Part shown: positions 52,402-56,307 of the stretch, piece after piece
How positions within the stretch are numbered: position 1 is the first letter of the stretch
Layout of the letters: each line of letters begins with the position of its first letter
DNA from: Actinomycetota bacterium
Lineage (GTDB): Bacteria; Actinomycetota; Actinomycetes; Nanopelagicales; Nanopelagicaceae
NCBI GenBank assembly: GCA_009704505.1
Contig: WLEB01000003.1
Location: 1 to 64,000 of the forward strand
Length of the DNA: 64,000 nt
Reading direction: 5' to 3'
Program-made: the position numbers and the translations under genes
Notes under the pieces: generated by a model
Seen by the model: only the letters and a program-made list of their open reading frames with translations
Databases searched by the model: none
Told to the model about the DNA's origin: nothing

Positions 52402-53232
52402 TTACAGCAGCTTTGGAATTACGCCTTTAAGCAATGAGCCCATACGGTCTGCAGCAGCTTTACCCGCTGCAATAACTTCTTCATGGTTTAACTTCTCACC
52501 AGTTACTCCTGCAGCAGCATTTGTCACTAACGAGATTCCAAGAACTTCTGCGCCTAGTGCATGAGCAGCAATAGCCTCTGGCACAGTCGACATTCCAACT
52601 AGATCTGCTCCCATAGTTCTCATCATTAGGATCTCAGCAGGTGTTTCATAAGTTGGCCCACGCCAGTGAACATAGACCCCCTCTTGAAGTGACGCATCTT
52701 CTTTTTTAACAATCTCTCGGATCCGCTTGCTATATAGATCGGTTAAATCAACAAAAGTTGCACCAGATAATGGTGAGACTGCTGTTAAGGATATGTGATC
52801 ACGAATTAAAACAGGTTGGCCAACTTTATAAGCGGTGTTTATTCCACCACAAGCATTGGTCAAGATAACAACTTTGCATCCAGCTTTAACTGCTGTCCGT
52901 ACTCCATGTACTACTGGCTCAATACCTTTGCCTTCGTATAAATGAGTACGACCGAGAAAAACCAATGCACGCATTTTTTTGCCATCTGCATCTATTTCAT
53001 ATGATCTAATCTTTCCAGAGTGTCCTTCCACCGCAGGAGGCAAGAATCCGGCGAACTCTTCTGCATTGCACTCAAAGGCAGGAACACCAAGTGCATCAAC
53101 GGCACTTACCCAGCCAGATCCCATAACAAGTGCTACATCATGTGCAGCAATACCTGTTTTCTTTGCGATCTCTTCGGCTGCAACAACTGCGGCGGCAATT
53201 GGATCACTGTATAAAAGCTCAGTCTTTCCCAT
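52402..53232 (-). CDS. punA: Purine-nucleoside phosphorylase
   Basis: VALVMGSGWVSAVDALG; GRTHLYEGKG; ILTNACGGIN; GMSTVPEAIAAHALG. Confidence 0.95.
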   Translation of the reverse strand: MGKTELLYSDPIAAAVVAAEEIAKKTGIAAHDVALVMGSGWVSAVDALGVPAFECNAEEFAGFLPPAVEGHSGKIRSYEIDADGKKMRALVFLGRTHLYEGKGIEPVVHGVRTAVKAGCKVVILTNACGGINTAYKVGQPVLIRDHISLTAVSPLSGATFVDLTDLYSKRIREIVKKEDASLQEGVYVHWRGPTYETPAEILMMRTMGADLVGMSTVPEAIAAHALGAEVLGISLVTNAAAGVTGEKLNHEEVIAAGKAAADRMGSLLKGVIPKLL

Positions 53233-53262: not shown

Positions 53263-53877
53263 TCAATGCATACCCTTGATCTGCGGCCAGGAGTATCCCA
53301 GTTGGGCACAAGCCTTTCTTAAAAACGGCATTGATATTCCGACAACATTTGTGTAGTCGCCTTCGATACTAGCGATAAATGGTGAACTAAATCCATCGAG
53401 TGTAAATCCTCCAGCAACATGTAATGGCTCTTCTGTTGCCACGTAATCAATAATCTCTTCATCAGTTAAATCTGCAAAATTGACGCGAGTAGTTACTCGA
53501 TCCGAAATCTCTTTATCTTTTAAAGTATCAATAATGCAATGGCCGGTATGTAGCAGCCCACTATTTCCTCGAACTCTCTGCGCCCGCTCGATTGCAATCT
53601 CCGGTGTGCCAGGTTTGCCAAGTGACATACCGTCAAATTCGAAAGTTGAATCGCAACCAATAATAATTGCCGGAAAATCAATTTGCTCACGAACAGTATG
53701 TGCCTTAGTGATCGCGAGAGCGATGACCATATCCGAAGGATTCATTGAGTTAAAGAACTCAGTTTCTTCATCAACATTGCTGACAATAATTTTCGGTGAG
53801 AGTCCAGCCGATTCAAGCAATCGACGACGGCTCTTTGAGGCAGATGCTAGAACAATTGTTGGTTGATTCGAAGGCAC
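53263..53877 (-). CDS. maf: Maf-family nucleotide pyrophosphatase
   Basis: IVLASASKSRRRLLESAGL; IIGCDSTFEFDG; GDYTNVVGISMP; GTG start. Confidence 0.95.
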   Translation of the reverse strand: MPSNQPTIVLASASKSRRRLLESAGLSPKIIVSNVDEETEFFNSMNPSDMVIALAITKAHTVREQIDFPAIIIGCDSTFEFDGMSLGKPGTPEIAIERAQRVRGNSGLLHTGHCIIDTLKDKEISDRVTTRVNFADLTDEEIIDYVATEEPLHVAGGFTLDGFSSPFIASIEGDYTNVVGISMPFLRKACAQLGYSWPQIKGMH

Positions 53878-53956
53878 GGGTTAAAGGTACTCGTTAAATG
53901 GCATAAATCAATTAATGAAATCTAATTAAACTAATTCTGACTACTAGGATGATTGC

Positions 53957-54949
53957 GTGAAGAACTCATTTCCAACCCTAGGAGTTATCGGTGGTGGCCA
54001 GCACGCTCGAATGTTTGTGGCTCCATCTGCATCTTTAGGTCTCGATCTTTTGATTTATGCATCAGATCCAAATGATTCAGCGGCTCAGATTTGTAAACAC
54101 GAGATCGGTAGTTATAAAGACTTAGATTCAATTCGTGAATTTGCAAAAAAATGCGATCTGATTACTTTTGCAGATGAGTTAATTCCACTGAGTATTATCC
54201 GAGCAATCGAAGCAGATGGTGTAGTTGTTCGACCATCTGCTGCAGCGCTAGAGCTCTCGCAAAATAAAGAATCCTTCGATTTGAAACTGATCAATTATCT
54301 TGGTACAGAATACGAAGAGAAAACCGGAAAAGTTCTCATTGAGAGACCACTTGATTTTGATTATGAGATTACAGTCATGGTTGCCCGCTCACCACACGGC
54401 CAAGCATCTACATGGTCACCAACTATTGATATGAAAAAAGATGGAATAAGCGTTATGACAATCACTCCCGTGCCAAAACTTTCACAAAATTTAAGTGAGC
54501 GAGTGCAAAAGATAGCAATTGAAATTGCCGAGATTTCTGGTGTAGTTGGTGTTGCAGCTGTGGAAATTCTTGTGAAGGGTGAGGAAATCTTCATCAACAA
54601 TCTTGTCATGGGCACCCACAATTCAGGGTTATGGACAATTGACGGTGCACGGACAAGTCAGTTTGAACAGCATTTGCGAGCAGTACTTGATTTGCCTTTA
54701 GGAGACCCAACAATGACTGCGCCAATTGCCGTGACAGGAAATCTTGTTGCAGGAAAGAAAGCAAATATGTATCGCCCATATTTGCATTTAATGGCAAGAA
54801 CTCCAGCACTTAAATTTCATCAGTATAGGAACGAAGTAAGCCGAGGTCACAAAGCCGGTCACATAACTTTACTGGGGGAGAGCCTCGAAGATCTAACTAA
54901 TGAAATCCAGCATGCGATTGACTATGTCAGTGGAGAGATTGATGAATGA
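53957..54949 (+). CDS. purK: Internally deleted N5-carboxyaminoimidazole ribonucleotide synthase (PurK) homologue
   Basis: PTLGVIGGGQHARMFVAPSASLGL; FDYEITVMVARSPHGQ; NNLVMGTHNSGLWTIDGARTSQFEQHLRAVLDLPLGDP. Central ATP-grasp segment (normally with K-x-x-x-GGYDGKG) absent. Confidence 0.9.
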   Translation: MKNSFPTLGVIGGGQHARMFVAPSASLGLDLLIYASDPNDSAAQICKHEIGSYKDLDSIREFAKKCDLITFADELIPLSIIRAIEADGVVVRPSAAALELSQNKESFDLKLINYLGTEYEEKTGKVLIERPLDFDYEITVMVARSPHGQASTWSPTIDMKKDGISVMTITPVPKLSQNLSERVQKIAIEIAEISGVVGVAAVEILVKGEEIFINNLVMGTHNSGLWTIDGARTSQFEQHLRAVLDLPLGDPTMTAPIAVTGNLVAGKKANMYRPYLHLMARTPALKFHQYRNEVSRGHKAGHITLLGESLEDLTNEIQHAIDYVSGEIDE

Positions 54950-54986: not shown

Positions 54987-56297
54987 CTAGTCGGTGCGAC
55001 CGAGTGCACGAAACTTCCACCCAGCTTTGCGCCATAAATCTCGATCCAGCATATTTCGCCCATCAATAATGACCTTGTTTTTTACCAATGCTGCAATTTC
55101 ATTTGGATCAATCTGGCGATACTCTTTCCATTCAGTAAGGTGTAAGACTAAATCCGAACCCTTTACCGCATCATTAATACTTTCGGCATACTCCAAATTT
55201 GGAAAACGCTTGCGAGCAGGTTCAATTCCCTTAGGGTCGTGAACAACTACATGTGAACCTGCTGCATTTAATTGAGCAGCAATATCTAATGCTGGGGAAT
55301 CGCGCACATCATCACTATCTGGTTTAAATGTTGCACCCAAAACGGCGATTTTGTATCCAGTTAATTCCTTGGAGAGTTCATCACGTACAACATCGATTAC
55401 GCGAAGACGGGCACGTAGATTGATTGCATCAATCTCTCGTAAAAATTCCAAAGCCTGCTTAGCACCTAACTCTTCAGCTCTAGCCATAAATGCTCGAATA
55501 TCTTTTGGAAGGCAACCTCCGCCAAAACCAATTCCAGCTTGAAGGAACTTGTTTCCAATACGTGGGTCGTAACCAATTGCTTGGGCGAGCACGGTTACAT
55601 CTCCGCCTGCGGCCTCGCAAACTTCAGCCATTGCATTTATGAATGAAATCTTTGTTGCTAGGAAAGAATTTGCGGCTACTTTTACTAATTCAGAGGTAGG
55701 CAAATCTGCACGAATCCATGGAGTGCCAAGATCTAGAATTGGTTTATAAACTTTTTTAAGAGTCTCTTCTGCCAGGTCATTGGCAACACCAACAACTAAT
55801 CTATTTGGTGTCAATGTATCCTTAATAGCAAAACCCTCACGTAGAAACTCTGGGTTCCATGCTAAATCAGATTGAGGTGCGATCTTTACTAATTCACCGC
55901 GAAGTGATTGCGCAGTTCCCACCGGTACCGTGGACTTACCAACGACTAACGAACCCTTTTTTAAGTACGGCGCGATAGCTGCAACTGCTGATTTTACATA
56001 CGTTAAATCAGCGGCAAGTCCATCCTTGCTCTGGGGCGTCCCAACGCAAACAAAATGAACATCAGTCTTTGCGACAGCAGCAAAATCAGTTGTAAAAGAC
56101 AATCTGCCTGACTTCACTTCTTGGGCAAGTAATGTTTCTAAACCAGGCTCATAGAATGGCAAACTTCCACTTTGTAACTGTGCGACTTTTTCGGGATCAG
56201 TATCAACACCAACAACTGTGTAGCCAAGTGAAGACATACATGCTGCATGTGTTGCGCCAAGATAACCACAACCAACAACCGAAAGTGTTAAATCCAT
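54987..56297 (-). CDS. ugd: UDP-glucose 6-dehydrogenase
   Basis: LTLSVVGCGYLGATHAACMSSLGYTVVGVDTDPEKV; FGGGCLPKDIRAF. Confidence 0.95.
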   Translation of the reverse strand: MDLTLSVVGCGYLGATHAACMSSLGYTVVGVDTDPEKVAQLQSGSLPFYEPGLETLLAQEVKSGRLSFTTDFAAVAKTDVHFVCVGTPQSKDGLAADLTYVKSAVAAIAPYLKKGSLVVGKSTVPVGTAQSLRGELVKIAPQSDLAWNPEFLREGFAIKDTLTPNRLVVGVANDLAEETLKKVYKPILDLGTPWIRADLPTSELVKVAANSFLATKISFINAMAEVCEAAGGDVTVLAQAIGYDPRIGNKFLQAGIGFGGGCLPKDIRAFMARAEELGAKQALEFLREIDAINLRARLRVIDVVRDELSKELTGYKIAVLGATFKPDSDDVRDSPALDIAAQLNAAGSHVVVHDPKGIEPARKRFPNLEYAESINDAVKGSDLVLHLTEWKEYRQIDPNEIAALVKNKVIIDGRNMLDRDLWRKAGWKFRALGRTD

Positions 56298-56307
56298 GGT
56301 CTTCACT

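Follow-up and report, generated by a model that had tools for sequence, protein, structure and literature searches.

What does a bacterium keep when it retains a purK gene from which part of the ATP-grasp region has been deleted in frame, and beside which purE is missing? This question is raised by a 64,000-nucleotide stretch of DNA (the window; contig WLEB01000003.1 of an Actinomycetota bacterium of the Nanopelagicaceae). The initial annotation offered two answers, a gene caught in decay before its first frameshift or a repurposed protein with the PurK fold. We compared the gene and its locus with those of other members of the genus, which is probably, as we take it, Ca. Planktophila, and of further genera of the family; most of the genomes compared are incomplete MAGs. 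Our preferred reading, to which we assign a probability of about 0.7, is that the gene product is a pseudoenzyme with the PurK fold, catalytically dead and kept for a non-catalytic role.

The window PurK is shortened in frame and altered at conserved sites

The open reading frame was confirmed as a GTG-initiated gene of 330 aa (Table 1). The comparison set was 17 full-length PurKs from its genus, which are 370 aa long. The in-frame deletion in the ATP-grasp region is real, with a net loss of 40 residues instead of the 60-80 first estimated. The junction lies at approximately residues 120/121 of the window protein, its placement shifting by a few residues with the alignment, and the stretch present there in full-length relatives and missing from the window is FPVIAKAISGGYDGRGVWK. 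The deleted segment held the Lys and Asp of K..(S/T)GGYDGRG, which correspond by alignment to E. coli Lys120 and Asp127; these residues are thus gone rather than present in a divergent form. In E. coli PurK, Lys120 contacts adenine, Asp127 is the proposed catalytic base and Gln11, Lys307, Arg313 and Lys314 are the proposed AIR contacts (PMC3261824).

Both blocks flanking the junction are clearly PurK, as annotated, but the C-terminal block is not catalytically intact. Its replacements include N215, G219 and L225, where the former motif NELAMRPHNSGH now reads NNLVMGTHNSGL, and N292 and H298 in the former AIR-contact motif. G219 replaces the Arg of RPH, L225 the second His of HNSGH, and N292 and H298 correspond by alignment to E. 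coli Lys307 and Arg313. The Glu replaced by N215 (NE motif) is a Mg ligand in ATP-grasp enzymes. All five sites are invariant in the 17 full-length PurKs and replaced in each of the four members of the window's clade. The AIR-contact residue Gln11 is kept in the window and is Glu in the other three members, and Lys314 is kept or is Arg within the clade.

The Pfam ATP-grasp domain (PF02222) matched over profile positions 61-179 of 179, compared to 24-179 in an intact relative. The scores against the NCBIfam PurK models were under the cut-off (NF004680, 286 versus 327 bits; TIGR01161, 222 versus 318). Of the features by which an N5-CAIR synthase would be recognised, the complete ATP-grasp domain, the equivalog score and the full set of AIR contacts are missing from this protein, and the pathway partners were not found in its genome. 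As in pseudoenzymes, catalytic residues have been lost from a protein that is still homologous and similarly folded, and the coding sequence is under purifying selection; the stops, frameshifts and omega near 1 of a pseudogene were not seen in the window's clade. Confident AlphaFold2 models of the window protein (pLDDT 89.4, pTM 0.89) and of a shortened PurK from genus g32 (G225; pLDDT 91.8, pTM 0.87) both had PurKs as their best PDB matches. The input alignments were made up solely of homologues from this family, and confidence gained from homologues may show no more than the ancestral fold.

Table 1. Features of the shortened purK locus in the window.
Feature	Position	Strand	Description and basis
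Purine nucleoside phosphorylase (salvage)	52402..53232	-	Neighbour conserved in the family
maf-like nucleotide pyrophosphatase	53263..53877	-	Divergent neighbour
ACTACTAGGAT, -10-like element	53940..53950	+	Followed by a 6-nt spacer and GTG; maf-purK intergenic alignment
Shortened purK (probable PurK pseudoenzyme)	53957..54949	+	330 aa, GTG start; ORF, homology, alignments, dN/dS
Junction of 40-residue in-frame deletion	54314..54320	+	Placed by aligning the genus's shortened PurKs with its full-length ones
Former motif NELAMRPHNSGH, now NNLVMGTHNSGL	54596..54631	+	E to N215, R to G219, H to L225; alignment
Former AIR-contact motif KEVRPGRK, now NEVSRGHK	54830..54853	+	K to N292, R to H298; alignment
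ugd (UDP-glucose dehydrogenase)	54987..56306	-	Convergent neighbour

The locus has contracted around the shortened purK

The gene order in full-length relatives is pnp-accC-maf-pccB, birA-purK-purE, a CoA-binding gene and ugd, which places both purE and the CoA-binding gene ahead of ugd on the far side of purK. From the locus of the window clade, accC, pccB, birA, purE and the CoA-binding gene have been lost and the shortened purK has been kept, and the gap to convergent ugd is indeed 37 bp. This removal of its neighbours while the shortened purK stayed supports the pseudoenzyme reading. The TAGGAT sequence (53945-53950), 6 nt ahead of the GTG, also stood up to inspection. It forms part of an 11-bp block, ACTACTAGGAT, that is identical in the four window-clade species while the positions just upstream vary, which suggests that this candidate is probably a conserved leaderless promoter. 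Within the reach of the contigs, accC, pccB and birA are also missing from this locus in G020 and G027.

Shortened PurKs occur elsewhere in the genus and family

A search of 135 genomes of the genus found a closely similar form in G016 (81% identity), G113 and G087 (both 77%), with deletion boundaries identical in the window, G016 and G113. G110, G096, G020, G027 and G111 are shortened at the same place with other boundaries. In all, nine species of the genus carry a shortened PurK, all of them without PurE and PurC, and in the other members with a PurK match the frame is open and full-length, or the gene is cut off where a contig ends. G094, G151 and RFRA01000086 were rejected as shortened forms, since they retain GGYDGRG and are cut by contig ends. 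The shorter C-terminus of G016 and its second PurK fragment were treated as an assembly artefact and not as a second copy: contig C53 appears chimeric at its end, where the sequence matches the adjoining contig in reverse complement, and C40 carries the proper PurK C-terminus.

Shortened PurKs were also found in five further genera, g32 (which we presume is probably Ca. Nanopelagicus), g27, g31, g35 and g36, the last much diverged. Their lengths are 273-310 aa in g35 and ~225-236 aa in g31, the family minimum being ~225 aa. In g32, all seven genomes read end to end (three of them single contigs, 99-100% complete) encode exactly 273 aa at 55-72% identity, and the g32 forms are missing the entire KEVRPGRK loop. 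Every fully read shortened form has an open frame except that of G247 (g32, L091), which is possibly broken; its purK is in pieces, with matches at several places and a 141-aa ORF, either as a broken copy or through an assembly fault. PurK was not found, even by profile search, in G140 (84% complete, without PurE or PurC), nor by profile search in several well-covered genomes of g31, G207 (96%), G214 (99%), G213, G215 and G218. The residual role would therefore be dispensable in some lineages.

The same lobe appears to have been lost repeatedly

On a midpoint-rooted tree built from five neighbouring genes, shortened and full-length forms are intermixed. G110 groups with full-length G001 (support 95, on few positions for G110) and G027 lies beside that pair (100); G096 groups with full-length G014 (100); and the window clade groups with G020 (100), adjoining full-length G015/G095 (94). 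Genera g31, g32, g27 and g35 represent a further group with shortened forms, with poor support inside g35. Provided that the lobe was never regained, this tree implies that it was lost at least five separate times. In G286 (L108, L109), a shortened PurK of 290 aa occupies the ancestral position between birA and ugd, without purE there, and the genome also has a full-length purK-purE pair at an unrelated site, probably a reacquisition by import. Of all the observations, G286 speaks most clearly against redundancy of the shortened form with PurK.

Apparent loss of purine biosynthesis accompanies most shortened PurKs

PurE is absent next to the window's purK, as annotated, and neither PurE nor a second full-length PurK was found in the rest of the genome (78.7% complete), where PurM, PurL, PurC and PurH were likewise not found. 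The missing purE accompanies what seems to be a loss of de novo purine synthesis and not a second copy elsewhere. PurE, PurM, PurL and PurC were not found in eight of the shortened-PurK species (the window's own genome G000, G016, G113 (92% complete), G087, G110, G096, G020 and G027), and all four are contained in the complete control genomes. PurH is absent from the first five of these and present in G096, G020 and G027. The ninth species, G111, is without PurE and PurC, PurM and PurL having been tested in the other eight. Single weak AIRS_C matches in G113 and G087 score far under the control PurM/PurL matches, and the one in G113, considered as a PurM/PurL remnant, is a thiamine-phosphate kinase.

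Shortened PurK was present in 8 of 20 PurE-negative and in 0 of 115 PurE-positive genomes of the genus, with G111 left out and genes cut by contigs set aside in the latter count (Fisher p = 6e-8, which is descriptive only as the species are related and some PurE-negative genomes are mere gaps). MAG gaps were rejected as the reason for the absence of purE in the shortened-PurK genomes, where PurC and PurM/L are also missing, and in the window clade, where the locus has closed up between maf and ugd. Such a gap is likely in G018, G019, G035, G090 and G148, which have PurC.

Genus g35 differs in that both PurE and PurC persist in G294 (100% complete), G296, G290, G292 and others, where the shortened purK, the sole PurK found, overlaps purE. 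The class I PurE motif GGAAHLPGM, present in G282 and G015 with full-length PurK, reads GGAAALPGV in g35 members G287, G294, G290 and G292 (L079, L081, L087, L089), the conserved His being replaced by Ala; PurE of G296, G299 and QYPT keeps the His but has the V. The g35 PurE may itself have adapted. In G305 (g36, 82% complete), PurE and a much diverged PurK homologue were found and PurC was not.

The shortened PurK is under purifying selection

Comparison of the window gene with its relatives gave pairwise omega (dN/dS) of 0.18-0.23 within the window clade, well below 1, and omega = 1 was rejected in all six pairs (2dlnL 68-99). Region-wise omega was below 0.3 in the N-terminal, ATP-grasp C-terminal and PurK_C parts. 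Omega of intact PurK in the genus was mostly 0.02-0.07, about 0.05, with 0.12 in one little-diverged pair, and that of seven neighbouring genes was 0.01-0.15. The constraint on the shortened PurK is real, and looser than that on intact PurK and the seven neighbours; partial relaxation is possible. Several distant pairs had saturated dS and their omegas were not relied on. Since the deletion boundaries are identical in three of the clade members, the substitutions are most likely younger than the deletion. In g32, the fixed length at 55-72% identity together with low omega (dS mostly saturated) points to strong constraint.

These results make ordinary decay, a purine-auxotroph pseudogene that has so far acquired only in-frame changes, unlikely. 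Decay would account for the apparent loss of the pathway, the eroding catalytic residues, the omega some four times that of intact PurK and the related genomes that have no PurK. It does not fit the rejection of omega = 1 in every window-clade pair or the absence of stops and frameshifts from a form common to four species, when only ~0.1% of copies stayed stop-free in a neutral simulation of 0.2-0.25 substitutions/site on one branch. Nor does it fit the retention of the gene in several lineages, the conserved promoter block or the constant 273 aa of the g32 proteins.

A possible second function of PurK

The pseudoenzyme reading rests on sequence evidence. In the alignments, the ATP-binding lobe is gone, and with it the proposed catalytic Asp; most of the substrate and Mg contacts are gone as well. 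To this are added the failure to find any of the tested de novo purine genes in this genome, the purifying selection, the conserved promoter block and the recurrent in-frame loss of the lobe. We propose that full-length PurK of this family has a second role, independent of the ATP-grasp reaction, that would sit in the Rossmann part at the N-terminus, the second half of the ATP-grasp domain and the C-terminal PurK domain. Once AIR carboxylation was no longer needed, the catalytic lobe could be deleted; the remainder would then most likely serve as a folded scaffold, or else as a ligand- or partner-binding regulatory protein. In its more specific form, which we consider about as probable as its negation, the PurK of these actinobacteria would have a second function needing neither ATP nor AIR, exposed by the repeated lobe deletion, and the shortened protein would form a conserved family of its own, with the tightest constraint at RSPHxQ...W, EQxxRAxLDLPLG and RPYLHLMARxP. 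Repurposing was the better of the two initial options, with two qualifications: the form recurs across the family instead of being peculiar to one genome, and what remains of the protein may serve an old second function of PurK that outlasted catalysis, not a new one.

A new function, for example as a nucleotide sensor or purine salvage regulator, that each lineage gained on its own or in parallel once the pathway had gone is slightly less probable than decay. Purine nucleoside phosphorylase and maf adjoin the gene, its fold is of nucleotide-binding ancestry and auxotrophs should depend on purine salvage; however, that neighbourhood is ancestral and not new, shortened forms also occur in genomes retaining PurE and PurC, and that every lineage retained the same parts is more easily explained by a single old function than by several new ones. 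A continued role in purine synthesis, as an ATP-independent helper binding AIR or N5-CAIR for transfer to PurE, is very improbable, as the window's species and its relatives have no PurE, PurC, PurM or PurL and hence no AIR by that route, the AIR-contact residues are replaced and g32 has dropped the KEVRPGRK loop, even if the g35 arrangement (e.g. in G294) and the ability of class I PurE to work without PurK at high bicarbonate (PMC3261824) would suit it. Conversion of AIR to CAIR without PurK catalysis has been proposed for archaea with class I PurE (PMC3261824); this could explain the g35 genomes with PurE, although purK is wholly absent from those archaea and g35 retains its shortened PurK. 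Slow decay and a PurE helper are both weaker readings than a pseudoenzyme, though either might hold in some lineages.

The window protein resembles PurK (TIGR01161; PDB 3aw8, 3k5i, 3r5h) in the homology of both retained blocks (E 1e-36 to 3aw8), its predicted fold, and its ancestral locus and orientation. It departs from PurK in having no equivalents of Lys120 and Asp127, no Mg-site Glu, no AIR-contact Lys and Arg, scores below the equivalog cut-offs and no PurE partner. Pseudoenzymes, dead homologues with regulatory or scaffold roles, likewise lose catalytic residues and retain fold and purifying selection; in contrast to them, the dead form here recurs through deletion of a whole lobe, mostly alongside pathway loss, and derives mostly from the only PurK copy. 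Full-text literature on PurK or ATP-grasp pseudoenzymes yielded no comparable bacterial case. Domain atrophy, in which core structural elements of a domain are lost from still-functional proteins, includes the 2-Hacid_dh_C domain of S. aureus PurK (PMC4432964), but its cases are individual proteins, whereas the loss described here is recurrent and tied to auxotrophy.

Implications for the Nanopelagicaceae

A housekeeping enzyme that repeatedly loses its catalytic lobe, with the remainder kept after the pathway is gone, would be a natural experiment separating catalysis from a hidden non-catalytic role. Streamlined freshwater actinobacteria tend to shed unneeded genes, which makes the retention of the shortened PurK informative. 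Shortened PurKs also look like PurK to similarity searches and could lead to wrongly reconstructed purine pathways, because the nine species of the genus and the tested g32 genomes have no PurE or PurC despite a PurK homologue. A search for literature on purine auxotrophy in Nanopelagicus or Planktophila found nothing specific. All four acI genomes described in PMC5301498 were reported to have complete pathways of de novo nucleotide synthesis, so purine auxotrophy in the family may be under-recognised.
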